IMG/VR virus record: IMGVR_UViG_3300035698_013879
Span: 1-42,469 of that record
Reading direction: 5' to 3' (one strand)
DNA: 42,469 nucleotides
Source: a virus
The position numbers and the translations under genes were made by a program. Every line of letters begins with the position of its first letter. Position 1 is the first letter of the stretch. Shown one piece after another: positions 3,243 through 35,530 of the stretch. The notes under the pieces are model-generated. The model saw only the letters and a list, made by a program, of their open reading frames with translations. It did no database searches and had not been told where the DNA came from.

Positions 3243-3709
3243 GCCAGGCTGACATAAACAACGTGAAACAAGTTGCTGACCCTACGCGAGCTAAAGAGAC
3301 TTTTGGTGACATAGAGGATAAGGCCAATGATTTAGCGAGGGCTAATAATTTCACTGGTGCAACAGACTTTTTCACCCAAACTCTTTCGGGTGGAATCCTT
3401 GAAGTTAATGAAGGTGGCGGGGTTGATGGTGGTCCACTTATTGATCAATACGATGAGTTCCTTGGTGAAATTACAGGGCGTAACTCTAAAAGAGAGGATC
3501 TTCATCGTCAAGAAGCGGCCCTTATTGGACAGCAAAAAGAACGTGATCGATTACTTGCTGAAGAAGCAAATGCTCGACGAGTAGATGACGTTAGTGCAAG
3601 TCGTGCTGCAGGTTCTAGACGCAGATCTTCTCGAAGTTCAAGAGATGGTGGTGGAGGGAGTGGCGGTGCTTTCTCTCTTGGTGATCAACGCGACTTCCTA
3701 GGGATATAA
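3239..3709 (+). CDS. Hypothetical protein, low-complexity C-terminus
   Basis: 156 aa; no family recognised with confidence. The N-terminal 65 residues are of mixed composition. Residues 80-110 look helical and charged (LHRQEAALIGQQKERDRLLAEEANARR). The tail is Ser/Arg-rich then Gly-rich, ending in SLGDQRDFLGI. Short proteins with basic, disordered C-termini are common directly before the portal gene in podoviruses. GGAG lies 8 bases before the ATG, and the gene overlaps its upstream neighbour by 4 bases and the portal by 1 (TAATG). Confidence 0.6.
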   Translation: MSQADINNVKQVADPTRAKETFGDIEDKANDLARANNFTGATDFFTQTLSGGILEVNEGGGVDGGPLIDQYDEFLGEITGRNSKREDLHRQEAALIGQQKERDRLLAEEANARRVDDVSASRAAGSRRRSSRSSRDGGGGSGGAFSLGDQRDFLGI

Positions 3710-5421
3710 TGAAATCTAAAAACGAATTAAATTTTATAAGAACTCAAGGTAGAGAAATTTTCGATAAGGTTCGAGGTGATTGGATCGACTATGGACGATG
3801 GGCTCTACCCCACAGAACAAGATGGTTACAGTCACAAGTTGAAGGTCGTCGAGGCAATCAACATATTGTTGATACAACTCATCTGCTCGCATTACGTTCT
3901 TTTACGGCGGGTTTTTTAGAAGGTAATACTTCAGCATCGAGACCGTGGTATCGGTATGGAACTGGTGATAGAGATATCGACTCACAACCTGAGAACCACA
4001 AATGGCTTGATATATTTAATACAAGAACTTTAAGAGCTTTAAACAATAGTAATTTTTATCACGCTGCTGGTGTGTTCTATTATGATTATGGGACTTTTAA
4101 TACAGGTGCTCATTTCATGGAAGAGCTTGCTAATAACACTCTTCATTATCATACTCTAACCCCAGGATCTTATAACGTAATAAATAATTCTTTAGGTGAA
4201 GCTGTCATGTTGGTTCGTGAGTTTAGCCTCAGAGTAAAAGCTATCGTTGATGGGTATGGGACCAAGAACGAAGACGGAACAGTTAATTGGTTCAACATTT
4301 CATCCAGTGTTAAAAAAATGTATGACGATTCAAATTACACTCAGCAAGTAGACATTGCCCAAGTCGTCATGGAGAATGATAAATTTGATCCGAGTCTCCC
4401 TATAGGTGGAGAGAATCGTCAATGGGTTTCCTACACTTGGGAAGCTGCAGGAGTTAGAGGTTCTCAAGTAAACTCAATGAGTTCGATTCATCCTGACCCA
4501 AGAGATGAGACTAAATTCTTAAAAACAAGTTACTCAAAAAGAAAACCTTTTATCATTGGTAAATCAGATAGCTCTACTAATTTTGAATATGGTGAGATCG
4601 GACCAACATCTAGTGCATTGGGTTTGATTAAGTCTCTTAACAAAAAAGCAATAGCCAAAGATAGAGCCTTGGAACAAATGGTGAACCCTGCGGTTCAAGG
4701 ACCGGCAAGCCTGCGTAAGAGCTATGTAACAACAGCTCCAGGTAAATATGTTCCATTGGATGCTACAAGCTATTCTAAGCAAGGCTTGAAGCGCATCTTT
4801 GAGATTAGCCCTGCGATACAACATTTAGTCCAGGATACTGACGATCTTAGAAAATTGGTGGATCGTCATTACTTTGCAGACTTTTTACTGTACTTAACAA
4901 AAAATCCGAAAACAAGAACAGCTACAGAAACCAATGCAATTCTTGAAGAGCAACAGCGAGTTATTGGTCCAAACTTACAAGCGTTGAATTGGACGTTTAA
5001 CAATCCTCACGTTGATTTCGTAGCTGATTATGTACTTGATAACGATCCCGATCTTCCTCCAATCCCTCAAGGACTCCAAGGTCGTGTGTTAAAGCCAGAG
5101 TTCATATCAGTATTTGCCCAAGCTCAGAATGCTGCAGATCTTCCAAGTATTGATCGTTACATGCAGGCTATGGGTAATGTAGCTCAAATGAACCCCGACG
5201 TTTTATTTAAAGTAGATGTTGATAAGTATGCTGATTTATATCAAAATCGTCTTTATTTACCTGAAGGTCTTAACAGATCTCAAGATGCTGCTGATAAATT
5301 AAAACAACAAGCTATACAGGCAAAGCAGAAGCAGCAAGAAATGGAAACCTTGACTCAAGCCAGTCAAGCAGCAAAGAATGTAGGAATTAAAGTTAATGAT
5401 AACCAAGGAGAACCAAAGTGA
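3709..5421 (+). CDS. Portal protein (head-to-tail connector family)
   Basis: 570 aa, typical of podovirus portals. A dodecamer of this protein would form the vertex through which DNA is packaged and ejected. Supporting features are the N-terminal RGDWIDYGRWALPHR segment, the DTTHLLALRSFTAGFLEGNTS region (T7 gp8-like connector family, Head_tail_con), an aromatic-rich wing region near 110-150, and a C-terminal Gln/Lys/Ala-rich helix (about 525-560). Its place between terminase and capsid genes agrees. The start overlaps the previous stop by one base, and its stop overlaps the GTG of the next gene by 4. Confidence 0.9.
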   Translation: MKSKNELNFIRTQGREIFDKVRGDWIDYGRWALPHRTRWLQSQVEGRRGNQHIVDTTHLLALRSFTAGFLEGNTSASRPWYRYGTGDRDIDSQPENHKWLDIFNTRTLRALNNSNFYHAAGVFYYDYGTFNTGAHFMEELANNTLHYHTLTPGSYNVINNSLGEAVMLVREFSLRVKAIVDGYGTKNEDGTVNWFNISSSVKKMYDDSNYTQQVDIAQVVMENDKFDPSLPIGGENRQWVSYTWEAAGVRGSQVNSMSSIHPDPRDETKFLKTSYSKRKPFIIGKSDSSTNFEYGEIGPTSSALGLIKSLNKKAIAKDRALEQMVNPAVQGPASLRKSYVTTAPGKYVPLDATSYSKQGLKRIFEISPAIQHLVQDTDDLRKLVDRHYFADFLLYLTKNPKTRTATETNAILEEQQRVIGPNLQALNWTFNNPHVDFVADYVLDNDPDLPPIPQGLQGRVLKPEFISVFAQAQNAADLPSIDRYMQAMGNVAQMNPDVLFKVDVDKYADLYQNRLYLPEGLNRSQDAADKLKQQAIQAKQKQQEMETLTQASQAAKNVGIKVNDNQGEPK

Positions 5422-6248
5422 AATTTTTAATGATGTTTATAACAGTGTTGCTTTTTGTGACCCCTGCCTTCGCGGGATTCGAAGGAATTGAAGACACAAC
5501 TAGTTTAGGAATCTTTAACAGAATTAAGTGTGATACAGGAATCACCTGTACAAAAGTTAATGGCATATTTAAAATGGATGCCCCAGGTGACCCGTTTACA
5601 TTTACCAATGGTGAAATTATCGATAATACTATTGATGACACTATTAATTTTACTTCAAATGATGAACATACAACTTTAAAAGTAACTGGGTTTGAGGGCA
5701 AAGATGCAATAATTGAAATGGCAGCAGATCAAGAAGATGACACTGCTGATTTATTTACTCTTAAAGCTTCAACTTCAAATGTATTTTCTATTCTCAATGG
5801 GGTTACCGAGTTAATCACTATATCATCTGCAGGGGCACTCGCTACTATATCATCTATAACAGGTGACGGGAGTAGCGCAGTAGTAGGTTTTCTTCAAAGC
5901 CAAGTAGCTTCAACCACTGCCAGTCTGACTATTGCTCAGTGTGGTTCTACTGTTATTTCGGATAGTGCTGACGTAATAGTTTTACCAGAAGCTTCAACGG
6001 CTCTCGGTTGTCGATACACTTTTGTTTGTGGAACGGCTGACGATTTTGATATTGATCCTGCAGACGGTACAGATCAAATTGGAGCAATCAATCTCATTGG
6101 TGCCGGAACAAGTTCTACAATCACTCCTTCCGCAGGAGATGCTATCAGGTGTACTGACATTGGGTCTTCACTAGTACTTGAAGCTGTAGCAGCAAACTTG
6201 TGGTCCATTATAGGCACCGCCAACGGAGCGTGGACGGACGTTAACTAA
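5418..6248 (+). CDS. Putative secreted beta-rich protein with Sec signal peptide
   Basis: 276 aa, GTG start with AAGGAG 8 bases upstream. Residues 1-20 form a clear signal peptide: MKFL n-region, hydrophobic core MMFITVLLFVTP, and an AFA|G cleavage site. The mature part is Thr/Ser/Asp-rich and probably beta-structured. The last third (SLTIAQCGSTVISDS to the final NLWSIIGTANGAWTDVN) resembles C-terminal domains of phage structural proteins. Six cysteines fall in near pairs (KCDTGITC; LGCRYTFVC), consistent with disulfides in an oxidising compartment. The gene sits in the head operon, directly coupled to the portal gene (4-base overlap). Whether it is a virion component or is exported from the infected cell is unknown. 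Confidence 0.7.
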   Translation: MKFLMMFITVLLFVTPAFAGFEGIEDTTSLGIFNRIKCDTGITCTKVNGIFKMDAPGDPFTFTNGEIIDNTIDDTINFTSNDEHTTLKVTGFEGKDAIIEMAADQEDDTADLFTLKASTSNVFSILNGVTELITISSAGALATISSITGDGSSAVVGFLQSQVASTTASLTIAQCGSTVISDSADVIVLPEASTALGCRYTFVCGTADDFDIDPADGTDQIGAINLIGAGTSSTITPSAGDAIRCTDIGSSLVLEAVAANLWSIIGTANGAWTDVN

Positions 6249-6626
6249 ATGTCGTTCAACATAGAAGACGAAGACTTTAAGGAGCTTGATAAAGACGATA
6301 AGCTCCTTAAGTTTGAAGATCATTTAGTCAACAAAGAATCAATCGAACAAAGAGATGCAATCATAAATCTTAGAGAGGTTTTGAACACTCCTCCCGGTAG
6401 ATCTTTCATCAAGTTTTTATTTAAAACACTTGAGGTTGGTGAACTACCCTCAAAAGGATTAGAGAGTCCTGACATGTATGAGACCTTGGGTTTTCTAAGA
6501 TCTGGTCAGGCTGTGTTTCAATTAACTTCTCAAGCTAACCGAAAACTTGCTGGCAATATGCTGGCTGAAATCCAAGGAGATATTTATAATGATGCTATTC
6601 AAAGATCACAAATTGAAAATGGATGA
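6249..6626 (+). CDS. Bbp19-like small head protein
   Basis: 125 aa. The core NLREVLNTPPGRSFIKFLFKT followed by a DMYETLGFLRSGQ segment and QANRKLAGNMLAEIQ fits the small family named after Bordetella phage BPP-1 Bbp19, encoded near scaffold and capsid genes. Its role in virion assembly is not well defined. It starts directly after the stop of the preceding gene and has only a weak ribosome binding site, so coupled translation is likely. Its end overlaps the scaffold start by 8 bases. Confidence 0.6.
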   Translation: MSFNIEDEDFKELDKDDKLLKFEDHLVNKESIEQRDAIINLREVLNTPPGRSFIKFLFKTLEVGELPSKGLESPDMYETLGFLRSGQAVFQLTSQANRKLAGNMLAEIQGDIYNDAIQRSQIENG

Positions 6627-7368
6627 GAAAAAAGATGACGTAACACCTCCAGGCGGTGGCGCGGGAGATCCTCCACCAAAAGAGAGCTTTGGCTATGATG
6701 AACCACCAGCGGGAGATCCTCCACCAAAAGAAGAGCCACCAGCGGGAGATCCTCCACCAAAAGAAGAGCCTCCAAAAGATCCACCTAATTTAAGTGGTTA
6801 TGGAGATAACCCTCCACCAAAAGATGAACCACCAGCGGGAGATCCTCCACCAAAAGATGAACCACCAGCGGGAGATCCTCCAAAAGAAGGCGACTTAAAG
6901 GTTGATGACAAAGGCGAGCTTTTGGACAAAGAAGTCACTGACATTTTGACTTTTGCTAAAAAACATAAATTGTCGCAGGACGTTGTAAATGAGATGGTTG
7001 ACGCGAAGAAAACTCAGATCTCAGATGACAAAGCCTATGACAAGAAAGCTAAAGAGGATCAGGTGAAAGCCGTTAAGGACATGCATTCCAAGTGGTATAC
7101 GGAGTTGAAAAATGACCCTGACTTTGGTGGGGAAAACTTTAGACACAACTCAAAAAAGGTCGATAAACTTGTAAATGAGTTTATGCCTAACATCAAAAAA
7201 CAGTTGACAGAAAGGGGTGGTTTGCTGCCACCATACATTATGAGGGATTTTTATAAGCTGGCTACACACCTCTACAAAACTGAAAAGTTAGTTGACGGTG
7301 AGCCGCTTAAAGATGCCAAAGACAACGAGAATCATAAGCCTGATCATATCGCGTTTTATGATTCTTAA
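6619..7368 (+). CDS. Capsid scaffold/assembly protein
   Basis: 249 aa from ATG 6619. The frame is open upstream, but that extension lies within the preceding gene. The N-terminal half is a Pro-rich tandem repeat (units of the type PPAGDPPPKDE), followed by an acidic/Lys-rich helical region. The C-terminal part (KWYTELKNDPDFGG ... GGLLPPYIMRDFYKLATHL) matches the ending commonly seen in podoviral scaffolding proteins. The location immediately upstream of the major capsid gene supports this. The scaffold would guide procapsid assembly and then leave. The long proline repeat is unusual and is nearly perfect at DNA level. Confidence 0.75.
   Translation: MDEKKDDVTPPGGGAGDPPPKESFGYDEPPAGDPPPKEEPPAGDPPPKEEPPKDPPNLSGYGDNPPPKDEPPAGDPPPKDEPPAGDPPKEGDLKVDDKGELLDKEVTDILTFAKKHKLSQDVVNEMVDAKKTQISDDKAYDKKAKEDQVKAVKDMHSKWYTELKNDPDFGGENFRHNSKKVDKLVNEFMPNIKKQLTERGGLLPPYIMRDFYKLATHLYKTEKLVDGEPLKDAKDNENHKPDHIAFYDS
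6703..6893 (+). repeat. 33-bp imperfect repeats in the scaffold gene
   Basis: Copies of a 33-bp unit beginning ccaccagcgggagatcctcc start at 6703, 6736, 6829 and 6862; a partial copy (gcgggagatcctccacc) precedes them near 6661. The first pair and the last pair are each 33 bases apart and differ mainly by GAA versus GAT. They encode the PPAGDPPPK-type repeat. Confidence 0.9.
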
Positions 7369-7380
7369 CGGGGAGAGGTA

Positions 7381-8400
7381 ATGGCAACATTAGGCGCAAA
7401 ACTCACACTATTAGATGTGAGCAAAAATAAAGATAGTAAAATTGGAAAAGTGGCAGAAGTGTTAGTGGAAGAAAATCCAATGCTGGAAGATCTTCCCTAT
7501 TTTGAAATGAACGAAGGTACAATCCATAAAGAAGAAATTCGATCTGGCTTACCTACTGTTTATTACAGAAAAGCCAACCAACCAATTCCTTCAAGTAAGA
7601 CAACTACTGAAGAGCGTTCTTATAGTGCTGCTCATTTCGAGTCTAAATCTCAAATTGATGAGATGGTGGCTAAACGTGGTGGAATGGATCGAATCGGTTA
7701 CAACCGTTGGAATCAAGCAGAGGGCCATCTTCAAGCGATGGGTCTCGAACATGCTGATCTAATAATTTATGGTTCTCCTGCCTCTGATCACCGTAAGGTG
7801 GCGGGTCTTGCAGATATTTACTCAACCCTCTCTACTGGTGTAGAGTCTTCCAAGCAAATAGTTAATGCAGGTGGATCTCAATCAGACAACACTTCAATGT
7901 ATTTAATTAATTGGGGAGAAAGAGCATTGTTTGGAGTTTATCCTTCAGGCACTGAAGTTGGAATTAAGAGAACTGATCGTAGTAAAGGTGACACAAGAGT
8001 TCAAATCCAAGGTACGGATGAGAATGGAAACCCTGGTCACTACTGGGGTTATGAAGAGCAATTTGAAATTGATCATGGACTTGTGGTTAAAGATTATCGT
8101 CAAGCTTCTCGCTTGTGTAATATCGATATCTCCAACCTTCAAACTGGAGCGGGTGCGGCAGATCTTCTCGACCTAATGATTTCAATGTACTACAAAATTC
8201 ACAACCCTAAAAACGGTGTTGGAGTATATTACTGTAACCGCACAATTGAAGCGTTCTTGCACAAGCAAGCTCGTACAGTTGTTGGAGCTGGTGCAGGACT
8301 TACTTTTGAAAATGTTGATGGTAAGAAAGTGTTAAGCTTCCTCGGAATGCCAGTTAAGCGTTCTGATGCCTTACTAAATACAGAAGCAACAGTAAGCTAA
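7381..8400 (+). CDS. Major capsid protein (BPP-1 Bbp17 type)
   Basis: 339 aa. The N-terminal run LTLLDVSKNKDSKIGKVAEV...ENPMLEDLPYFEMNEGTIHKEEIRSGLP, followed by VYYRKANQPIPSSKTTT, is the hallmark start of the podoviral major head protein family that includes BPP-1 Bbp17. It would form the icosahedral shell. A strong ribosome binding site (GGGGAGAGG) lies just before the ATG, as expected for the most abundant virion protein. It follows the scaffold and precedes a probable cement protein. A hairpin lies just after its stop. Confidence 0.87.
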   Translation: MATLGAKLTLLDVSKNKDSKIGKVAEVLVEENPMLEDLPYFEMNEGTIHKEEIRSGLPTVYYRKANQPIPSSKTTTEERSYSAAHFESKSQIDEMVAKRGGMDRIGYNRWNQAEGHLQAMGLEHADLIIYGSPASDHRKVAGLADIYSTLSTGVESSKQIVNAGGSQSDNTSMYLINWGERALFGVYPSGTEVGIKRTDRSKGDTRVQIQGTDENGNPGHYWGYEEQFEIDHGLVVKDYRQASRLCNIDISNLQTGAGAADLLDLMISMYYKIHNPKNGVGVYYCNRTIEAFLHKQARTVVGAGAGLTFENVDGKKVLSFLGMPVKRSDALLNTEATVS

Positions 8401-8416
8401 TTTGAAAAATAAATGT

Positions 8417-8437
8417 AACACCTTGTAATGAGGTGTT
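8417..8437 (+). terminator. Hairpin after the capsid gene, possible attenuator/terminator
   Basis: A perfect 7-bp stem (aacacct/aggtgtt) with a 7-base loop begins 17 bases after the capsid stop codon. A T-run (8449-8453) follows, but only 11 bases beyond the stem, so it is not a textbook intrinsic terminator. Partial termination or protection of the capsid mRNA 3' end are both reasonable. Confidence 0.45.
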
Positions 8438-8467
8438 GAAATTTAAAATTTTTACATGGAGTTTAAT

Positions 8468-8905
8468 ATGCAATTAGATGTTGAAAATCAACTTTGCTCA
8501 GCGCAAGCCTTCACGGGTTCCGCAACAGTTTCAGAAAATGCTTATCAAAAGCAATCAGCGGTCCAGGATTTATCCATTGGTCGCAGGATAGCAATTGCGG
8601 TTTTCTTCTCTGCTGCTGGTACTGGAACAACTCATACACTTGACGCTATTCAAGCCGATGTCACAGCTTTAACCACTAATAAAGAAGTATTGGCTAGTGT
8701 GAGTATCGCGACAACCGCTATTAACCTTGGCTATCCAGTGGAAGTTCCAATCCCTGCAGGTGTCATGAGTAGACAATTTCTAGGGTTCCAACACACAGCC
8801 ACAGGTGGAACAACTACTGCAACGATTGATGCTTATTTAGTACCGCAAGATGAAATTGCCGAGTATTTTAAATCGTTTCCAAAAGTTGTAGATGCTAAAA
8901 TTTAA
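8468..8905 (+). CDS. Bbp16-like capsid cement/decoration protein
   Basis: 145 aa from ATG 8468, chosen because GGAG (8458-8461) is 6 bases upstream; an in-frame ATG at 8456 is the alternative. The pattern AQAFTGSATVSEN...DLSIGRRIAIAVFFSAAGT, alternating hydrophobic strands, and the closing FLGFQHTATGGTTTATIDAYLVPQD fit the Bbp16-type proteins encoded right after the major capsid gene in BPP-1-like podoviruses. These stabilise the shell at inter-capsomer positions. Size and location agree; identity is by pattern only. Confidence 0.65.
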   Translation: MQLDVENQLCSAQAFTGSATVSENAYQKQSAVQDLSIGRRIAIAVFFSAAGTGTTHTLDAIQADVTALTTNKEVLASVSIATTAINLGYPVEVPIPAGVMSRQFLGFQHTATGGTTTATIDAYLVPQDEIAEYFKSFPKVVDAKI

Positions 8906-8925
8906 TAATTAACAAGAAGGTTGCA

Positions 8926-9339
8926 ATGAGCGAAAATAACAGAAATGGTGGAGCGCCAATGCCTCCACCACCAGTAAAATCAAATGACGAAGACGCGGCA
9001 GGTGAAATTTTTGTAACTGATGGGGTTAAACCCGCAGGTGTTGGAACAGCAAACCAAATGGATACGTCAGGTGATAAACCTGTAGCTGTCCAACTTGGAG
9101 ATCAAGCTCCCGATTCGTCTGTGGTAGTTAAACCAGCAAAGTCAGGCATCATGGTCACCGCTATTCTTAAAGGTTTTTACGGTGGTTTGAGACGGAATGT
9201 TGGCGACAAGTTCATGATCAAGACCGTTGGTAGCTGGGGTACTTGGATGGAGTGTAACGACAAGAAAGTTCAATCCGAACTGATGTTGAGTCACAAAAAT
9301 AAAATGAAGAAGATTAGAGAAAAATCTTTCAAAGCTTAA
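8926..9339 (+). CDS. Hypothetical head-module protein
   Basis: 137 aa. The first 70 residues are Pro/Gly/Asp-rich and probably disordered. The C-terminal part (VTAILKGFYGGLRRNVGDKFMI...SWGTWMEC) is a short domain often seen encoded between cement and tail-tube genes of podoviruses (pattern: gfYgg-rr-GD-f...WM). Function unknown. AGAAGG lies 6 bases before the ATG. It is in the same transcription direction and tightly spaced with its neighbours. Confidence 0.6.
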   Translation: MSENNRNGGAPMPPPPVKSNDEDAAGEIFVTDGVKPAGVGTANQMDTSGDKPVAVQLGDQAPDSSVVVKPAKSGIMVTAILKGFYGGLRRNVGDKFMIKTVGSWGTWMECNDKKVQSELMLSHKNKMKKIREKSFKA

Positions 9340-9360
9340 TCTCAATCAAAGGCGGGAGAA

Positions 9361-9987
9361 GTGTTTTCTAAAGTTGAACTTTATAATGTAGCTTTATCAA
9401 CACTTCTTCTTGAACGACAACTCGTCGATGTCACTACAGACAATTCAAATGAAAAGAAAGTTTTAGATCTCTATTATGACGCGGCTCTTTTCTCTACGTT
9501 AGAGGATATGGATTTAGACTCCACAACTACCAAAGTAACTCTAGCATTGGTTACAGCGGCGCCTGTTTCCCCTTATGATGAGCTATGGAACTATGTGTAT
9601 ACATATCCCGCGAATTGTTTATTTTTCAGAAGAATCTATTCGGGTGCTTATAAAGATAATAGGTACACCCATGAACCTAAAAATGTTGAAATGTATGACG
9701 GTAGTAAAGCTATCCTCACAAATAAAGTGGGAGCAATTGCCGAAATTATTCCCAAGGATATTGATGTCACATCTTTATCTTCTTTAGCAGGTATGGCAAT
9801 TGCTACAAGATTAGCATATTTATCAACACCTCTTATTGTTGGTAAAGGCGCTGCTAAACTTAAAGCAGACATTTTAACACAATACACATTTTATAAAGCT
9901 GAAGCTCAAGCCCATGATCAAATGGAGAACTTTAGTTATCATGAAGATGCTGTGGAGTCTGAATTTGTAGCAGAAAGGACGTCATAG
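9361..9987 (+). CDS. Tail tubular protein A-like adaptor
   Basis: 208 aa, GTG start with GGGAG close upstream. The pattern SKVELYNVALSTL near the N-terminus, WNYVYTYPANCLFFRRIY, KAILTNKVGAIAEIIPKDIDVTSLSSLAGMAIATRLAYLSTPL corresponds to the T7 gp11-type tail tubular A family. In those phages it forms the ring between portal and nozzle. The following gene has the tail tubular B signature, the expected pair. Highly acidic/aromatic C-terminus. Confidence 0.85.
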   Translation: MFSKVELYNVALSTLLLERQLVDVTTDNSNEKKVLDLYYDAALFSTLEDMDLDSTTTKVTLALVTAAPVSPYDELWNYVYTYPANCLFFRRIYSGAYKDNRYTHEPKNVEMYDGSKAILTNKVGAIAEIIPKDIDVTSLSSLAGMAIATRLAYLSTPLIVGKGAAKLKADILTQYTFYKAEAQAHDQMENFSYHEDAVESEFVAERTS

Positions 9988-12606
9988 ATGGCCTATAAAC
10001 TCCAAGCTAACTTTGCCGGTGGAGAACTCGATCCGGTATTGCGAAAGCGTATATCTCTTAACAAATATCACAACGGTTTAGCAACAGCTCGTAATGTTGT
10101 CATTGGTCGCACAGGTAGGATCATCACTCGACCTGGGCGAAAATATATTAAAGATGGTGGAAATTTAAGTGGCGGGTCTATAACTATTGGTGCTGATAAA
10201 AAAGTAATCGTTCACGCCATGCCTTGGAAAGGTCGATACCTCGAGTTTGGCGAAGGTTATGTTCAGGTTTATGAAGCCGATGGAACAGTTGTTGGTCAAA
10301 GTACACATAATGTTTGGCAAGAAGAAGACTTTGAGTATCTTCAATTCGTGAATGTGAAAATGGAAAACACATATAATGTTTCTATTAACGGTGCCGTACC
10401 AGCGTACTCTTCAGGATACGCAACAATGGTTTTCTACGGAAAGGACACTGGGTCTTCACCTCAAACAAATATAATATTTGATGATGGAACCATCTTAACT
10501 ACTCAATTAAGTAACTACTTTTTCATGCCTATTGGTGTAGCCAGTGTCACAACAGGAACATACAATGGGACAAGTTACGACGTCGATTATGTAATAGCCG
10601 CTGTAATCAACGGGCACCCAAGCACCAATGTACTAACTTTGACTCATTCATCTACTAGCGCACAACTACCTGCAGCCGCTACAGTAAACAGTTTTGCAGG
10701 AATCAAAGTGACAGATAGTGCCGCACCCACAGGTAAAACTTTATCAGGTGATGATGTTGACATTGAGGTAAGGATTTATAGAAGACCCACTAATGGTGGA
10801 GCTTATGGTTTTATAGGCTCAAGCAAAGCATATACATCGGGTACTGGTTTCATATTATTTGATTTTATTGATAGAGGACAAGACGCCGATTATACTAATC
10901 AACCCCCTGATTATGCTTCGGGTATAAAAGAAGTTGTGTCTAATCCTATTTCTTTTTTTAGTAATGAAATAATAAGAAGTGGTTCCATGTACCAAGGAAG
11001 ATTAGTAGCCAGTCATGGTGATGACTTAGTGTTTAGCAGACCTGGAAAACCTGGAAATTTTTTGAGAGACTATCCACTAAACGGAAGTTCAGCATTGAGC
11101 ACTAACATACAAGGTAACGGCAGCAACGAGATACTGGCAATAATTGAAGACAATGGCTTATTGGTTTTTACTAATGATGGTGTTTTTTTACATACGGGAA
11201 CACTAAGTCCTAGCAATTTGGCGTTTGATAAAAAGTCACCTGTTGTAATTGACTATCGTGTTCCACCTTTAAATATTTCAGGTGGAACCATTTTTGTAGA
11301 TGTGCAAAGTAATAGTGTGCGGCAACTCAGATATTTTGATGAAAAACGAAGTTATGTTGCTGATGAACTGAGTATCTTCAGTGACCATCTTTTTAGAGAA
11401 AACAGAATAACATCATGGGCTTTCAGTGAAGGATCTCTTCCTTTATTGTGGGTCGTATTCGCAGACGGAACTTACGCTACATTTACTTACGATGAGTCAC
11501 AGGAAATGAGAGCTTGGACCCGTCATGATTCAGGAACTGGAATTGAACGTGTATGCCAAATCCCTGCAGGTTTTGATAGTTCAGGAGATCGAGTATCTCC
11601 AAGACTTGTTTTTGTCTGCAAAAAAACTAATGGGACTCAACGATGGATCGAACATGGAGTCGATAGGTTTGTAACAGGTGAAGACCTTGAGACAAACCCT
11701 GAAGCTGACAAAGGTGAGAAAGCTGCGGCAATGGATTCTATGGTTTCATGGTCTGCACTTTTAAACGATGACTTAACTAATGATGATATAACAATCACTC
11801 CTGTAGTAGCTGGTACATGGGATGGAGATTTAACATTAGCTGATGTCAATGATGCAATTTTCCCTAACCCTGGAGCTGGGACAGTTGGTGAAGTTTTTAG
11901 ATGGTTCCACCCTGTGGATAGAACTTCTATCGATTTAACAATCACAGCTAGAGCAAGTGACGATTCCGTAACAGTAAGTCCAAGCGCGGAGTTTCCTTTA
12001 GCTTACGCAACCAACCCAAGACTTTATAAAACTAAAAACAGTTTCACAGGTCTTGATCATATGGACGGTGAGACTGTCGCAATAATGATGGACGGTTATG
12101 TTAAAGCTTCTCCCAACAATGATTTTGAAAATTACACTACAGTTACAGTATCAAGTGGGACAATCGCTCTACCGAACTCAGAGCTTGGTGCTATCGTTCA
12201 TATTGGACGACCTTACACTAAGGATATAGAAACTTTAAATATCAACACAGTCGAACAGAGACCGACTCATAATGAGTCTGTGACTTGCAATAAGGTTAAG
12301 ATTGAAACCTATCAGTCAAGAGGAATGTATGTTGGTTCAAAATTTCCACTAAACGACAAGATTACTGGAGATGCTAATGATTTAGCCACTGGGAGAACTC
12401 TGAAACCTTTTGATAGTTACGCTGTAAACTATGAGGACCCCAACCCTATTACAGGTAACAGGTATGATCAACCAGTCGATAAATCAATTCAAATGACTGT
12501 ACCGGGCAATTGGGAGTCCAACGGAAGAATTTGCTTGAGGGAAGTAGATCCTGTACACTTTGAACTATTGGCTATCACACCTGACATAGACGACCAAAGG
12601 AGGTAG
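9988..12606 (+). CDS. Tail tubular protein B-like nozzle protein
   Basis: 872 aa. The N-terminal signature FAGGELDPVLRKRISLNKYHNGLATARNVV followed by GRTGRIITRPGRKYI is characteristic of the tail tubular B/stabilisation protein family in podoviruses. The protein would form the tail nozzle distal to the adaptor. Length is close to the T7 gp12 range (about 790 aa). The gene abuts its partner, starting directly after that stop (TAG ATG). A strong Shine-Dalgarno (AAAGGAGG) overlapping its end serves the next gene. Confidence 0.87.
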   Translation: MAYKLQANFAGGELDPVLRKRISLNKYHNGLATARNVVIGRTGRIITRPGRKYIKDGGNLSGGSITIGADKKVIVHAMPWKGRYLEFGEGYVQVYEADGTVVGQSTHNVWQEEDFEYLQFVNVKMENTYNVSINGAVPAYSSGYATMVFYGKDTGSSPQTNIIFDDGTILTTQLSNYFFMPIGVASVTTGTYNGTSYDVDYVIAAVINGHPSTNVLTLTHSSTSAQLPAAATVNSFAGIKVTDSAAPTGKTLSGDDVDIEVRIYRRPTNGGAYGFIGSSKAYTSGTGFILFDFIDRGQDADYTNQPPDYASGIKEVVSNPISFFSNEIIRSGSMYQGRLVASHGDDLVFSRPGKPGNFLRDYPLNGSSALSTNIQGNGSNEILAIIEDNGLLVFTNDGVFLHTGTLSPSNLAFDKKSPVVIDYRVPPLNISGGTIFVDVQSNSVRQLRYFDEKRSYVADELSIFSDHLFRENRITSWAFSEGSLPLLWVVFADGTYATFTYDESQEMRAWTRHDSGTGIERVCQIPAGFDSSGDRVSPRLVFVCKKTNGTQRWIEHGVDRFVTGEDLETNPEADKGEKAAAMDSMVSWSALLNDDLTNDDITITPVVAGTWDGDLTLADVNDAIFPNPGAGTVGEVFRWFHPVDRTSIDLTITARASDDSVTVSPSAEFPLAYATNPRLYKTKNSFTGLDHMDGETVAIMMDGYVKASPNNDFENYTTVTVSSGTIALPNSELGAIVHIGRPYTKDIETLNINTVEQRPTHNESVTCNKVKIETYQSRGMYVGSKFPLNDKITGDANDLATGRTLKPFDSYAVNYEDPNPITGNRYDQPVDKSIQMTVPGNWESNGRICLREVDPVHFELLAITPDIDDQRR

Positions 12607-21170: not shown

Positions 21171-22145
21171 ATGAGCAGGACTACATATAACGTACAACAT
21201 ACTTACACAGGAGCTAATAATAAGCTCGATTACACCTTTAGTTTTAAGATTGAGGAGTTATCTCAGTTATTGGTTGTGCAAAGGAATGCTTCTCTCGTTG
21301 AAACCTCTAGAGTTTTAGGAACCGACACCTCTGTTCTTATTGACACTGTGGTCTTTGATGCTGAAGCAGGTGGTGGAACTGTCAATCTTTTAGTTAATTT
21401 ACCAACAGGTTACAAACTTGATATTTTCTTAGCCAACGATGCTCCAACACAGGGGAGTATGTTCAGAAACAAGACTGACTTCTCAATGCCCAATATTGAG
21501 AACGCTCTCGACTGGATTGCTGGTGCGGTGCAACGTGTATCTTTTCTATCCCAAAGGTCAGTTAAGTTAGAAGATTATTTAAGTCTTGCGTCATTTGATC
21601 CAACATTACCCGCCGATATAATCGGGGAGTCTCAGAAAGTATTTGGAACCAATACAGCAGGTGACGGTTTTGAGATGGGTCCTAGCTTCGCTGATATTGA
21701 AGCCGCCGAAACGTATGCGACTTCAGCTGCTTCAGCACAGGCAGCGGCAGAGACAGCTCAAACAGCGTCTGAAACAGCGCAAGCCGCATCAGAGGTTGCA
21801 CAAGCTGCGGCGGAAGCGGCTCAACAAATTTATCAACACTCTGTAACAGGTGGACAATCCGCTACAGACCTTACCGACGAGACTTTTGACGCAAGCTTAT
21901 ACACTGCGGTATTTTATAATATTCTAGTAATCAGAGGAACCACCTTGGTTGATGACTTTGAGGTCAGGTGTCATAATGTGAATGGGACGTGGAGAACAAC
22001 TCAACTACCTTCATCATTTGGACCAACAGGTGTTACGATAACGAATAGTCAAACAACAACAATTGGTCAATTAAAGACCGCTCTAACAGCAGGTGACAAT
22101 GGGTATCTTCAAATTAAAAAACATTATTTTACTACTATTATTTAG
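21171..22145 (+). CDS. Tail fibre/adaptor with T7 gp17-like N-terminus
   Basis: 324 aa; GAGG lies 8 bases before the ATG. Residues 1-135 match the T7 tail-fibre N-terminal domain that attaches to the tail (YNVQHTYTGANNKLDYTFSFKIEE; RNKTDFSMPNIENALDWI). An Ala/Gln/Glu-rich heptad region follows (about 178-222, TAQTASETAQAASEVAQAAA), a likely trimeric coiled coil. The short C-terminal domain of about 95 residues is of unknown type. The protein is too short to be the whole receptor-binding fibre, so it may be an adaptor for another fibre. Its last 47 bases overlap the next gene in another frame. Confidence 0.82.
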   Translation: MSRTTYNVQHTYTGANNKLDYTFSFKIEELSQLLVVQRNASLVETSRVLGTDTSVLIDTVVFDAEAGGGTVNLLVNLPTGYKLDIFLANDAPTQGSMFRNKTDFSMPNIENALDWIAGAVQRVSFLSQRSVKLEDYLSLASFDPTLPADIIGESQKVFGTNTAGDGFEMGPSFADIEAAETYATSAASAQAAAETAQTASETAQAASEVAQAAAEAAQQIYQHSVTGGQSATDLTDETFDASLYTAVFYNILVIRGTTLVDDFEVRCHNVNGTWRTTQLPSSFGPTGVTITNSQTTTIGQLKTALTAGDNGYLQIKKHYFTTII

Positions 22146-24597
22146 TTTTCCGCTTTTACTACAAGCTGAGACGACTGTTAATAATGATTTTATTCATGTC
22201 GATAATATTAAGATCAATGGAAATACAATTTCTAGTGAGGACACTGATGGTGATGTTATCCTCAACCCAAACGGCACAGGTAATATTCTCTTCAATGATT
22301 TAACAGCAACAACAGTTCCCTATCTTGACGTAAATAAAGCTCTTGTGAGTTCCTCAGTGACACCAACAGAGCTTGGTTATGTAGCTGGAGTAACGAGTGG
22401 CGTTCAAACGCAGCTTGACGCTAAGATGGATGAGATTACGAGTACTGATGAAGCTATCACTAGGTTTAATGGGACCACGGGGTCCGTTCAAGACTCTGGT
22501 ATAACTATCGACGATTCTGACAACATGAACTTCGCAGCGTTAACAGCGAACAGAGTTGTCTTTCTTGACGCGAGTAAAAATTTAGCGGTCACAGGTGTAA
22601 CGGCAACAGAAATTGATTATGTGGATGCGACAAGTTCAATCCAAACTCAGCTTGATGGAAAACTCGATGAGTCTACCATCACAACCAAGGGTGACATTTA
22701 CGCCGCAACAGCTAGTGCAACACTATCTAGACTTGGTGTTGGAGCCAATACTCAAGTGCTCACAGCGGACAGTGCTGAAGCTACTGGGATGAAATGGGCC
22801 GCAGCTTCAGGCGGAGGATCAGGTACAGGGTCTAAAAACTATTTTCCTTCTGCAAGTGCAGACCTTGAGAGCTCTGTAGGAGCTTGGACTACTGATGATG
22901 GTGCTGGAAGTGCAGCATCTTATCTAACTGTTACAAGAAATACGACAACACCATTGGCAGGTACAGGTGATTTAAAAATTACCAAGTCGGCTAATGATGC
23001 GAGTGGTGAGTTTGTAAAAATAACAAGTGAAGCCATTGATATCTCAGATAGAACAACGGGCATGTTGTATGGGTCATTTAGTTTTGACACGACTGAAGAT
23101 GCTGCTTATGCGGCAGGTGATTTTATTTTAGAAGTTTATGACAACACAAATACGGCGGTTCTTTACTGTGGTCAAAGTGCTAACTTAGAAATCCCTTCAA
23201 CAAAATATTCTTTTCAGTTTAACTGCGCAATAGAATCAACTACAGCGAGTGTCGAGTATCGTTTAAAAGTTAACAGCACCAATGCTTCAGCTTACGATAT
23301 TTACTTCGATGAATTAAGACATGGACCTGCTGCAAAAATACAAGCACCAGTGGTTACAGAGTGGCAAGCGTATACACCCACAGGAGCGTGGACGACAAAC
23401 ACAACTTATACAGGTAAGTACAGAAGGGTAGGGGACACCTTAGAGGGTATGGTCAAGTTGACTCTTAGTGGGGCTCCAACGAGTGCCACTCTCACTGTAG
23501 AGATACCTAGTGGCCTAACTATCGACACGGCTAAGTTGGTCTCATCAACATTCGACATGGTTTTAGGTAACGCTGTTGTAAATGATGGAAGTACAGCGGT
23601 ATATGACTCCATTGTTTCTTACGCATCAACAACTTCAGTAGCGCCAAAAAGTGAGCTTGCCGCAAGTCCTGAAGGTAAGTACAGTTCAATAAATTCCACA
23701 TTCCCAATTACCTTTGCTTCAGGTGATTACATTATTTTTTATTATAGTGTACCTATTGTTGGTTGGGACGCAGGAGCTCTGGTAAGTGAAAATGTGCTTA
23801 GCTTAAACACACTAAGCATATCAGGGGCAGGTAATGGAGGCACATCATTAACCGCCGATGTAACAAATATAGATTTTACAGAAGTATCAGACTCCCATAG
23901 TACTTGGAACGGGACTCAATTCACAGCTCCAAAGTCTGGACGTTATGAGGCAAGGGGTGTAATATTTATAAACTCAAGCGTCGACATATCTATTAGATCT
24001 TACATTGATGGAACTCTCGATAAACTTATAGGGTACACAGGGGGAGCGACCTCGATTCACCCCTTCTCTTGGGTTGGAGATCTTGAAAAAGATGAGGTTT
24101 TGTCCTTTAGACAAAATGGGACCGCAACTCTATCTAACAGTGCAAATTTTCATTGGCTAGAAATATCAAACGCTCCTGATTACACAACCCTTGGCGTTGT
24201 TAAAAACTACGAGTATGTAGAAAGTAAAAACACATCTTTTAATAATTATGGGATAACAGCAGGTGAGTGGGGCGACCTGACTTCTGTTGTTTTAAGCGAA
24301 GGAACATGGGACATAAGTGCGTCTGCTAATTTTTATTCAAATGGCACAACAACAACAACAGCAGTAAACATTGGAGTTTCCACAACCTCGGGGAACTCTT
24401 CGACTGGACTCGCCCAACCTGATACGTCTACACAGAGGCCAATGAATAACACAAGTGGCAATACGGCACCCCTGAATTTAAGTACATTAAGAGTCAGTCC
24501 AACGTCTACAACAACGTATTACCTTAAAGCTTTCGCTGGAAGTAGCACCGCAAATTTACAGGAAGTTTATAAGCTTTCAGCAAGCCGAGTGAGATAG
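22099..24597 (+). CDS. Large fibre-like protein with Sec signal peptide
   Basis: 832 aa from ATG 22099, chosen because AGG lies 5 bases upstream. Residues 1-23 form a clear signal peptide: basic GIFKLKN, a hydrophobic core of 15 residues, cleavage after LLQA|E. Then come phage-fibre style motifs: GNTISSEDTDGDVILNPNGTGN, and two copies of a TELGYVAGVTSGVQTQLDAK-like repeat (the second as TEIDYVDATSSIQTQLDGK). A Gly/Ser linker precedes a probable carbohydrate-binding-like beta domain (about 250-415) holding the only two cysteines. The NGTQFTAPKSGRYEARG region resembles a C1q-like jelly roll. The signal-coding region lies inside the preceding gene in another frame. It could be a receptor-binding fibre or an exported protein. 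Confidence 0.75.
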   Translation: MGIFKLKNIILLLLFSFPLLLQAETTVNNDFIHVDNIKINGNTISSEDTDGDVILNPNGTGNILFNDLTATTVPYLDVNKALVSSSVTPTELGYVAGVTSGVQTQLDAKMDEITSTDEAITRFNGTTGSVQDSGITIDDSDNMNFAALTANRVVFLDASKNLAVTGVTATEIDYVDATSSIQTQLDGKLDESTITTKGDIYAATASATLSRLGVGANTQVLTADSAEATGMKWAAASGGGSGTGSKNYFPSASADLESSVGAWTTDDGAGSAASYLTVTRNTTTPLAGTGDLKITKSANDASGEFVKITSEAIDISDRTTGMLYGSFSFDTTEDAAYAAGDFILEVYDNTNTAVLYCGQSANLEIPSTKYSFQFNCAIESTTASVEYRLKVNSTNASAYDIYFDELRHGPAAKIQAPVVTEWQAYTPTGAWTTNTTYTGKYRRVGDTLEGMVKLTLSGAPTSATLTVEIPSGLTIDTAKLVSSTFDMVLGNAVVNDGSTAVYDSIVSYASTTSVAPKSELAASPEGKYSSINSTFPITFASGDYIIFYYSVPIVGWDAGALVSENVLSLNTLSISGAGNGGTSLTADVTNIDFTEVSDSHSTWNGTQFTAPKSGRYEARGVIFINSSVDISIRSYIDGTLDKLIGYTGGATSIHPFSWVGDLEKDEVLSFRQNGTATLSNSANFHWLEISNAPDYTTLGVVKNYEYVESKNTSFNNYGITAGEWGDLTSVVLSEGTWDISASANFYSNGTTTTTAVNIGVSTTSGNSSTGLAQPDTSTQRPMNNTSGNTAPLNLSTLRVSPTSTTTYYLKAFAGSSTANLQEVYKLSASRVR

Positions 24598-25189: not shown

Positions 25190-25551
25190 TGAAGCGCGGG
25201 GTGGCTCTTCTCTTAGCAAGGTTTGTATCGAATCCATATCGAGATTCGTTTGCAGTCCGTCTAGGCGCTAGAGCCATTCTTCTTAAGTTTGGTATTACAG
25301 GTAGACTCGCTGATGCAATCAGTTATCCTTTAAGACTCATGATCGGTTTTATAATGGAGACAGGTGTTTTCCATATTGATCTAGCAATAGATACTTTAAA
25401 ACTAGGTATGCAATTGAGAGAGTTTAGAAAGATAGCGAGAAAAGCTTATCTTGATGCCAAAAAAGGTGTATTAGATTTAGAAGAAAAGGAGAGAATTAGA
25501 AATGAATATCGCAAAGCTCTTAGGCTTATCGGCCCTATTATTTCTGGTTAG
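25189..25551 (+). CDS. Hypothetical protein of the lysis region
   Basis: 120 aa. There is an amphipathic or hydrophobic central portion (GARAILLKFGITGRLADAISYPLRLMIGFIMETGVFHIDLAIDTL) and a basic, helical C-terminus (REFRKIARKAYLDAKKG...KERIRNEYRKAL). Comparable proteins with a KYGITG-like start and a DxxxDKL-type centre occur in many phage late regions without known function. The start overlaps the upstream stop by one base and has no clear Shine-Dalgarno, so coupling is likely. The end overlaps the lipoprotein gene by 50 bases in another frame, an arrangement reminiscent of nested spanin genes. Confidence 0.5.
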   Translation: MKRGVALLLARFVSNPYRDSFAVRLGARAILLKFGITGRLADAISYPLRLMIGFIMETGVFHIDLAIDTLKLGMQLREFRKIARKAYLDAKKGVLDLEEKERIRNEYRKALRLIGPIISG

Positions 25552-25864
25552 TTGTGCAGGTATTGGTAAAATACCAGACACAGAAACTATTATGATTGCT
25601 CCTTTTGAAGATGGTCCTGAAGCATTCAGTATTACTACTGTGAGCAAAGTTGAGAGAAGCTACACACCATTAGAGACTGAAGAACTTATGCCAACTCTTA
25701 TTTGTAAAAGAGGTAGTGATTGGAATAAGTGGCGAGCATTTGCATTGAAGGCTTGTAGACTTGCCAAAAGAGACGAACAACAATGTAATCTTGATGTTAA
25801 AAGTGTTGGTGAAGGAATTGAAATTTTAGATAAACTCAGTGAAGTTTTCAAAAAAGGTAACTAA
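25502..25864 (+). CDS. Putative outer-membrane lipoprotein (o-spanin candidate)
   Basis: 120 aa. The N-terminus is a type II signal peptide: MNIAK, hydrophobic LLGLSALLFL, then the lipobox LVSC with the lipidated cysteine at residue 18. AAGGAGAG lies about 10 bases upstream of the ATG, inside the preceding gene. The mature protein has three further cysteines (C68, C84, C95 region). A phage lipoprotein beside an endolysin suggests an outer-membrane spanin subunit, but at about 100 mature residues without a Pro-rich linker it is not a classic Rz1. Superinfection exclusion is an alternative role. An 18-bp stem-loop begins near its 3' end. Confidence 0.65.
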   Translation: MNIAKLLGLSALLFLVSCAGIGKIPDTETIMIAPFEDGPEAFSITTVSKVERSYTPLETEELMPTLICKRGSDWNKWRAFALKACRLAKRDEQQCNLDVKSVGEGIEILDKLSEVFKKGN

Positions 25865-33025: not shown

Positions 33026-35530
33026 ATGAAGAAAAAACTCAGACCCTATCAAACCACAGTCAGAACAAAGATTTATAATGCTTGGGACCAAGGTCATAAG
33101 AATGTGTTAGCTATCATGCCTACGGGTGCTGGTAAATGTCTCGGTGAGGACACTCCAGTTCTTATGTACGATGGTTCAATTAAAAATGTTCAAGACATTG
33201 AAAAGAATGATCTCATCATGGGACCTGATAGTAAACCTCGCAAAGTTCAAAGCACTTGTACAGGTGAGTCTGAGATGTACAAAATTGATCCAATCAAAGG
33301 CGAGCCTTGGTATTGCAACGACGTTCACGTTCTCACTTTAAGGCACACAACTACAAAAAAGATAATAGACATTCCACTCAACGAGTACCTTGAGAAGAGT
33401 AACAACTTTAAACATCTTCACAAATTACATAGAGTGGGTGTTGAGTATCCTGGTAAAATTGTTAGAAATCCATATATGTTAGGTCTTTACTTAACTAAAA
33501 AAGAATACTCTCACTCTAAAAAGTGGGGAGTTAATATAATCATAAGGTTGTGTAAATCCTGCACAACTAAAGACTCACGTTGGATACCTGATGAGTATTT
33601 GATAAACTCACGAGATGTTAGACTGCAAGTTTTAGCCGGACTACTTGACGGGGACGGGTATCTTCACAACGGATACTTTGAAATCATAACTAAATACAAA
33701 CAACTCAGCGACGATCTTTTATACTTGTGCAGGAGCTTAGGTCTTGCTGCGTACAGTTCGTTTAAGATAGGTCGAATAAAATCTACAGGTTTCGAAGGGG
33801 AATATTTTAGAGTCTCTATCTCAGGTCACTTGGATATGATTCCCAATATTGTACCAAGGAAGAAAGCTCCACCTCGCAGGCAAAAAAAAGATGTGTGTAA
33901 TACAGGTTTCTCAGTCAAGTCCGTCGGCAAAAATCAGTACTACGGATTCACTCTTGATGGCGACGGAAGGTTTTTATTAGGAGACTTTACAATTACTCAC
34001 AACACTGTCACATTTTCAAATATAGCTATTGAACATGCTATTGAACGAGCACTCATTGAACCCGTGGCAATTGTTGTTCATCGTAAAGAGTTAGTTCAAC
34101 AAATAAGTCTCACCTTGGCACATGAAGATGTCTCACATAATATAATTGCTCAACGTAAAACTATTCAAGGTATCATAGCAGGGCATCGCAAAGAGTGCGG
34201 TAAAAATTATTATAATTCTACAGGTAACATTACTGTTATATCAGTGGACACCCTCAACTCCAGATTCACTGTCTATCAGCAATGGGCAAAAGGTGTGAAG
34301 CTTTGGATCACCGATGAAGCGACTCACTTACTTAAAGACAATAAGTGGGGAAGAGCTGTTGCTATTTTCCCCAACGCTAAAGGACTTGGTGTTACCGCTA
34401 CACCAGAGCGACTAGACAAAAAAGGTTTAGGGTCTCATGTTGATGGCGTCTTTGACGTAATGATTGAAGGACCAACAACTAAGTGGCTCATTAATCAAGG
34501 TAACTTGTGTAAATATAAAGTAGCTGTGCCACATGGAGACTATCAAGATCATTTAAAACAAGCAGGTAACAACACCGACTTTACAAAGAAGGCCATGACT
34601 GAGGCAAGTAATAAGTCTCAGATTGTTGGTGATGTTGTTGTTAACCACAAGAGGTTTGCTAATGGACTGCAAACAATTCTATTTGCCACCGATGTTAAGA
34701 CAGCATTTGAAATGGAAAAGAAATTTCTCGAAGCTGGCATACCTGCAAAGACTCTGACTGGTGAGACCAATGATCAAGAGCGATTGCAAGCGATGATTGA
34801 TTTCAGAGAGAAAAAGATCAGGGTTTTAATTAATGTGGATCTCTTTGATGAAGGTCTCGATGTTCCAGGTATCGAGTGTGTTCAAATGGCTCGACCTACC
34901 ATGAGTCTCGGTAAGTTCTTACAAATGATTGGTCGGGGGCTGAGACCTGCACAGGGTAAAGCATTCCTTATGCTCATTGATCATGTTGGTAATGTGGGGA
35001 GACATGGACTTCCTGACAAACCAAGACAATGGACTCTTGATAGAATTAAGAAGCGAAGGAAAGTTAATGACTTAATGAGAGTTTGTGACAACCCGATGTG
35101 CGCCTCACCTTATGATAGAGAGTTAACGGCTTGTCCATGGTGTGGAACTGATGCGATTAGAAAAGGTGGAGGTGGAGGCGGGCGCATGCCACCTGAACAA
35201 GTTGATGGTGATTTATTTTTAATAGATCCGTTTACCTTAGAAGAAATGGCTAACGATACATGCCTTGAAGCACCTGGGGATATTGCGACAAGAGTAGGGA
35301 AAGCGGCAGGTCCAGCGGCAGCAAAGAGTGCATTAAAAAATCAACTTGCTCGGATAGCTATTCAACGAGACTTGAGTGAGCGCATTGCTCAATGGGCGGG
35401 TGAGTTTAGATCCAAAGGTTATCAGGATCGAGAGATTAATAAGAAGTTTTTCATTGAGCAAGGATTAACTATCAATCAAGCGTTAGCACAGAAGAGTGTT
35501 GATATGAAAAAACTATTGGAGGAATTATGA
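33026..35530 (+). CDS. DEAD/H-box helicase (SF2), interrupted by an intein
   Basis: 834 aa precursor; about 545 aa after intein removal. Walker A is PTGAGK(37) joined to T327 after splicing (GAGKT). Motif II is the variant DEAT (WITDEATHLL), motif III GVTATPERL, and motif VI LQMIGRGLRP. A C-terminal zinc-ribbon-like region (CDNPMCASPYDRELTACPWCG) and a tail of about 100 residues follow. This is the SSL2/UvsW-like type common in phages, acting in repair, recombination or branch migration. Splicing is required, since the intein separates the P-loop Lys from its Thr. No ribosome binding site precedes the ATG, and the candidate promoter would give a leaderless mRNA. Confidence 0.88.
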   Translation: MKKKLRPYQTTVRTKIYNAWDQGHKNVLAIMPTGAGKCLGEDTPVLMYDGSIKNVQDIEKNDLIMGPDSKPRKVQSTCTGESEMYKIDPIKGEPWYCNDVHVLTLRHTTTKKIIDIPLNEYLEKSNNFKHLHKLHRVGVEYPGKIVRNPYMLGLYLTKKEYSHSKKWGVNIIIRLCKSCTTKDSRWIPDEYLINSRDVRLQVLAGLLDGDGYLHNGYFEIITKYKQLSDDLLYLCRSLGLAAYSSFKIGRIKSTGFEGEYFRVSISGHLDMIPNIVPRKKAPPRRQKKDVCNTGFSVKSVGKNQYYGFTLDGDGRFLLGDFTITHNTVTFSNIAIEHAIERALIEPVAIVVHRKELVQQISLTLAHEDVSHNIIAQRKTIQGIIAGHRKECGKNYYNSTGNITVISVDTLNSRFTVYQQWAKGVKLWITDEATHLLKDNKWGRAVAIFPNAKGLGVTATPERLDKKGLGSHVDGVFDVMIEGPTTKWLINQGNLCKYKVAVPHGDYQDHLKQAGNNTDFTKKAMTEASNKSQIVGDVVVNHKRFANGLQTILFATDVKTAFEMEKKFLEAGIPAKTLTGETNDQERLQAMIDFREKKIRVLINVDLFDEGLDVPGIECVQMARPTMSLGKFLQMIGRGLRPAQGKAFLMLIDHVGNVGRHGLPDKPRQWTLDRIKKRRKVNDLMRVCDNPMCASPYDRELTACPWCGTDAIRKGGGGGGRMPPEQVDGDLFLIDPFTLEEMANDTCLEAPGDIATRVGKAAGPAAAKSALKNQLARIAIQRDLSERIAQWAGEFRSKGYQDREINKKFFIEQGLTINQALAQKSVDMKKLLEEL
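33137..34003 (+). mobile_element. Intein in the helicase P-loop, with degenerate LAGLIDADG region
   Basis: 289 residues, from C38 to N326 of the precursor, followed by T327 as the +1 nucleophile. Block A starts CLGEDTPVLMYDGSIKNVQD. Block B has CNDVHVLTL with the splicing His. Blocks F/G are YGFTLDGDGRFLLGDFTITHN, ending in the expected His-Asn. The second LAGLIDADG helix is intact (VLAGLLDGDGYL), but the first reads YMLGLYLTKKEY without the acidic residue. The stretch between the two helices is only about 50 residues, so the homing endonuclease is probably inactive while splicing residues are kept. Confidence 0.9.

Follow-up and report, generated by a model that had tools for sequence, protein, structure and literature searches.

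By the usual view, tailed phages complete their particles inside the cytoplasm. Among the cultured relatives of the epsilon15-like podovirus considered here, Vibrio phage 1.185.O (MG592551) ends its tail operon with an adaptor that has a gp17-like domain, followed by a separate fibre. No signal peptide was found in the fibres and spikes of these cultured relatives, 1.185.O included, and the tailspike of epsilon15 is also signal-less. A cleavable Sec signal has been proven in a phage protein for the T4 antiholin RI, which is a lysis regulator and not a virion protein (PMC8385771). Phage-like fibres exported by bacteria have been described as the MAT fibres of Bdellovibrio, in which a signal peptide is directly followed by a conserved beta-rich N-terminal domain of ~130 aa and then by a phage-fibre-like architecture with C1q/TNF or lectin tips (PMC10769870). 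Our literature search, which covered only a minority of subscription journals and preprints, found no description of a tailed phage whose tail fibre or capsid spike bears a signal.

The window, meaning the whole stretch of 42,469 bases analysed from IMG/VR virus record IMGVR_UViG_3300035698_013879, has an adaptor and a separate fibre as 1.185.O does, with the difference that its fibre begins with a Sec-type signal peptide. The window fibre resembles the Bdellovibrio MAT fibres in signal and architecture, whereas MAT genes are bacterial and have no known adaptor partner (PMC10769870). The window gene lies in a phage tail operon, and does not belong with the chromosomal, surface-displayed fibres of bacteria. 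We rate the finding as known parts in a proposed assembly route for which we found no precedent in tailed phages.

Genome context and the fibre gene

By its capsid, portal and tail proteins and its gene order, the window is an epsilon15-like podovirus. The GP7 capsid, the Head-tail_con portal and gp11/gp12-like tail proteins occur in the conserved order (Table 1), which is that of epsilon15 (Uetakevirus type) and of cultured Vibrio and Pseudomonas relatives, at a major capsid protein identity of only 35-38% (~36% to epsilon15). Unlike the window, epsilon15 has no counterpart of P2, the second signal-bearing protein treated below. Elsewhere, the helicase-like ORF at 33026-35530 (+) holds an apparent intein, CLGEDTPVLMYDG ... 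GDFTITHNT, between the Walker-A motif GAGK and TVTFSN; the helicase of the related genome L040 is likewise long (883 aa). A host assignment from the MAG contig L048 (JAHFMX010000016.1), a relative binned in groundwater MAG nzgw467, was tried and rejected, as related bins measure 0.4-1.2 Mb with Omp85 in 0/8. Mis-binning is likely, since these bins lack Omp85 and the lipoprotein encoded by the phage resembles an outer-membrane spanin.

Table 1. Features of the window that bear on fibre and spike export
Feature	Position	Strand	Basis
Tail-fibre-like protein of 832 aa that starts with a Sec-type signal peptide	22099..24597	+	ATG start; C1q-like/CBM-like by homology and low-confidence fold match
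Fibre signal peptide MGIFKLKNIILLLLFSFPLLLQA	22099..22167	+	Strict rule; predicted cut after residue 23; signal kept in 19/21 relatives
First 60 mature fibre residues, proposed adaptor-docking segment VDNIKINGNTISSEDTDGD	22168..22347	+	62% identity to L043 fibre; co-variation with adaptor C-terminus
T7-gp17-type adaptor / short tail fibre, without signal peptide	21171..22145	+	phrog_5510 tail fiber; homologues
AGGTG, Shine-Dalgarno-like stretch upstream of ATG 22099	22091..22095	+	Inferred from sequence
P2, capsid-spike-like and signal-bearing; its gene separates those of portal and scaffold	5418..6248	+	Strict rule in homologues; Pa223 capsid spike fold match
P2 signal peptide MKFLMMFITVLLFVTPAFA, then GFEG after the cut	5418..5474	+	Sequence
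Portal (Head-tail_con), anchor for P2 position	3709..5421	+	PF12236, E 3.6e-77
Major capsid protein GP7, epsilon15 type	7381..8400	+	PF20911, E 1.3e-87
Probable outer-membrane spanin with a lipoprotein-type signal (LFLVSC); the third protein targeted to the envelope	25502..25864	+	Inferred from position and lipobox

The first-pass annotation had read a clear signal peptide at the start of the fibre ORF and a separate adaptor before it, and both readings hold. The ATG follows a Shine-Dalgarno-like stretch, and the classic Sec-type N-terminus has the basic n-region, hydrophobic core and small -1 residue of a Sec/SPase I precursor by the strict rule given below, with an Ala-ending cleavage site (LLLQA/ETT) after which the mature protein begins ETTVNND. 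The adaptor lacks a signal, and its N-terminal domain is of the T7-gp17 type. It had also been pointed out that the signal is coded inside the end of the adaptor gene in another frame. This is so for codons 1-16 (22099-22145), but nothing special attaches to the overlap: it is incidental, because the signal-bearing gene begins past the adaptor stop in L039, L070, L072 and L076. Translation starting downstream of the signal, which would undo the reading, is unlikely. In this frame a start codon does not recur until codon 83, with another at codon 87, and starting at either would remove a segment 62% identical to the L043 fibre.

Two further features of the fibre carry less weight. Its only two cysteines (357 and 376) are indeed close together, but their interpretation as one disulfide is weak, because conservation of the pair was not found in homologues and signal-bearing fibres are not enriched in Cys relative to ordinary phage fibres (0.90% vs 1.10%). 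Cys enrichment as proof of fibre export was rejected, the control fibres being equally Cys-rich and the parity and pair signal being confined to P2. Structure prediction gave a fibre model too weak to use (pLDDT 48), so its C1q and CBM fold matches serve as hints only.

Signal peptides across the lineage

Relatives were collected via the capsid gene and via the adaptor, and signal peptides were scored by hand-made rules, not by SignalP. The strict rule comprises an uncharged hydrophobic 11-mer, a net positive n-region and a small -1 residue. In 21 genomes a gene following the adaptor is visible (the window, L039-L045, L069-L078, L135, L142 and L143), and in these as well as in MW202898 it adjoins a gp17-like-domain adaptor. 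This gene has a signal peptide in 19 of the 21, while the fibres themselves are mosaics with little overall similarity; the two exceptions are L071, discussed below, and L044, with only ~115 nt after the adaptor. MW202898 (Manatee Spring phage) belongs to a different lineage and shows the same layout of adaptor and signal-bearing fibre. A search for more of its relatives yielded fragments only, and phage records searched with the adaptor, P2 and distant P2 proteins as queries gave no matches.

The strict rule was passed by 14/19 fibres, by 25/26 P2 homologues and, among the remaining structural homologues of the lineage, by 0/444; adaptor homologues likewise have no signal peptide (0/18). By our reading, the five fibres that fail have a polar residue within the core or a core in the wrong position. 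A loose rule accepts every fibre and flags 4/153 genes annotated in the cultured relatives (three of the four are spanin-like), but it also flags 15/39 tail-tube homologues, so the strict-rule numbers alone are to be weighed.

These counts bear on the simplest objection, that this is an ordinary fibre whose hydrophobic start arose by chance from the adaptor overlap or from a mis-called start. The position of the fibre start inside the adaptor gene would favour such a reading; however, signals persist in relatives without the overlap, the first alternative start is codon 83, and the background is 0/444. We consider it highly improbable and refuted on present evidence. As judged from the relatives, the predicted fibre signal in this lineage is not a chance feature. 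The earlier suggestion that two signal-bearing, structural-looking proteins in one genome point to real export is thereby strongly supported. That they form a deliberate export system is too strong, because the phage encodes signals only and no machinery, the host Sec pathway presumably being used.

Some genomes carry additional signal-bearing genes. L075 has two consecutive pairs of adaptor and signal-bearing fibre (5281-10232), which differ in the adaptor C-termini and in the fibre tips (Gly_rich_2 and Tail Collar) and may be a dual host-recognition set. In L039 (7817-10659), the signal-bearing fibre is followed by another four ORFs with signals: MKLLLVFVMFMFCAPVHSA, MRHIILIIILTFMQFASAQ, MKTIVILFCILFCTCANSS and MKKFSAILISILIGVIIPKVSFAE.

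A signal placed before virion-type domains

The position of the signal is best seen in the L076 type of fibre, which reads SSQA, cut, and then GIPLSTNFTVNTALPIEDR, with the same domain behind other signals in L142 and L143. L071 is nested in the same clade by the capsid tree (support 100/97) and has two fibres without a signal, beginning Met-GIPLGSNF and Met-GIQLGSNF. The former start coincides exactly with the L076 cut site (SSQA/GIPLSTNF). The domain also begins gp60 and gp61 of Cellulophaga phage phi18:1, which are recorded as structural by virion MS/MS. They share the mature N-terminal domain with the L076, L142 and L143 type but lack its signal peptide. From the L071 starts and the match to gp60 and gp61, the signal appears to be a prefix set exactly before a virion-type N-terminal domain, a domain seen in Cellulophaga virions through these homologues, not through the window fibre itself. 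Taken together, the comparisons show a predicted signal that is present and conserved, with virion-type domains right behind it.

L071 also demonstrates that this type of fibre can manage without a signal, which we count against our preferred explanation. P2 is missing from only four of the compared genomes, and two of these are L071 and L044 (capsid loci L052 and L008); the chance of both exceptions falling among P2-less genomes is ~0.04 by a hand calculation that ignores relatedness. In the same L071, the C-terminal part of a signal-less fibre (1534-2484, flipped) is 51-62% identical to the C-terminal parts of adaptors L071_A and L076_A, a module swap.

Fibre and adaptor as probable partners

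Across 22 pairs, the first 60 mature fibre residues co-vary with the last 110 residues of the adaptor (Mantel r=0.80, p<=5e-5), compared with r=0.17 only for the adaptor N-terminal domain. Omitting the last 40 adaptor residues did not change the co-variation. Docking of the mature fibre N-terminus on the adaptor C-terminus is therefore well supported as a prediction, with the co-variation counting as support and not as proof, because neighbouring gene ends can recombine as one DNA block. At the other end of the fibre, matches above Pfam cut-offs to Tail Collar, C1q and Gly_rich_2 domains were obtained in homologous genes that bear a signal. The receptor-binding tip of the window fibre is assigned by homology and a low-confidence model only (C1q-like/CBM-like, from homology to L072). 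The middle of the L076 fibre is ~33% identical to tailspikes of Stenotrophomonas phage DLP6 and of Streptomyces phages, which are signal-less by annotation. In L041 (3532-4806, flipped), the signal-bearing fibre has a C-terminal cap homologous to that of the cytoplasmic adaptors of L072, L045 and L074, indicating module swapping between adaptor and fibre.

The fibre might instead be exported without joining the virion. It might then coat the host surface or be released, block receptors against superinfection, spare progeny from binding debris, or act as an adhesin like the Bdellovibrio MAT fibres, which have signals and phage-like tips (PMC10769870). The near-universal signal would suit such roles, and some adaptors end in a cap domain of their own and could be complete short fibres. 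On the other hand, the fibre N-terminus tracks the adaptor C-terminus, virions of Cellulophaga phages contain the domain that here follows the signal, and the gene adjoins the adaptor within the tail operon, twice in L075. We regard export without virion attachment as unlikely, though it is the most serious competitor to the exported virion fibre.

P2, a second signal-bearing protein

P2 had been noticed as a second signal-bearing, structural-looking protein, and its homologues confirm this. Present in most of the lineage, it is a capsid-spike-like family with a near-universal signal. All 26 homologues have a signal-like start and then a mature segment with a CX4-6C pair. The number of mature Cys is even in 25/26 by script; the exception, L024, was cut by the script at the wrong site and is even at the conserved site. 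The even number and the conserved pair suggest that mature P2 may reside in an oxidising compartment. The P2 model matches the capsid spike of Pseudomonas phage Pa223 (PDB 9ny6; Foldseek, 9ny6_C, E 2.4e-5, probability 1.0), with a poor global superposition (TM 0.28, rmsd 20) and a weak HMM match as capsid spike (E 0.18).

The C-terminal domain of P2 has relatives in GP7 phages that are as remote as epsilon15 (L092, L105, L109, L111 and L119), in Phage_capsid_2 podoviruses (L110 and L113) and in L095, a phage whose neck and tail-tube cluster is of the HK97 type. By the loose rule, a signal is present in 18/19 complete ORFs of these distant relatives. That of L095 (1768-3417) is a signal-bearing 549-aa fibre with a P2-type tip, and its gene is flanked by those for Neck1 (HK97-gp10-like) and the tail tube in what is a long-tailed phage. 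L013 has an extra, unrelated signal-bearing protein (5555-6046) between portal and P2.

The cysteines of P2 also weigh on whether the signals are cleaved at all. An uncut signal kept as a membrane or lipid anchor could tether the fibre, along with nascent virions, to the inner membrane or provide the virion with a lipid patch. This is possible because engineered T7 with a PhoE signal on a capsid protein was reported to be phospholipid-binding and infectious (PMC5157022). Nevertheless, the signals have clear cleavage-type ends, L071 begins exactly at the cut site with the segment absent, and the Cys pattern of P2 suggests an oxidising compartment. Retention of the signal thus seems improbable to us.

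A possible assembly route

The explanation we prefer, at a probability of roughly 55%, is a Sec-exported and cleaved distal fibre that docks on the adaptor at lysis, with P2 using the same route. The protein, made as a precursor, would serve an epsilon15-like podovirus as its distal tail fibre and recognise the host. Host Sec machinery would export this precursor to the periplasm and signal peptidase I would cut it; both export and cleavage are strong predictions from the N-terminal sequence. The freed N-terminus would dock on the C-terminus of the gp17-like adaptor, itself cytoplasmic and virion-bound, and the putative attachment would accordingly take place outside the cytoplasm. Docking could occur when lysis mixes the compartments, so that the virion would be dressed during or after lysis, and holin, endolysin and spanin (the lipoprotein of Table 1) would be the simplest means of mixing. 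P2 would be exported in the same manner. It counts against late docking that a periplasmic fibre would need to meet the virion before dilution at lysis.

More broadly, tailed phages of several families may complete their virions outside the cytoplasm, with spikes and fibres passing through Sec, being folded and processed in the periplasm and joining at or after lysis; we put this forward tentatively, at slightly less than even odds. Signals that recur lineage-wide on fibres for host recognition, and in at least three capsid types on proteins resembling capsid spikes, suggest an assembly step outside the cytoplasm. They raise the testable question of where the receptor-binding protein is located while the virion is built. 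Export could explain how fibres avoid cytoplasmic sugars or debris, and may bear on how bacterial fibres such as the Bdellovibrio MATs gained export.
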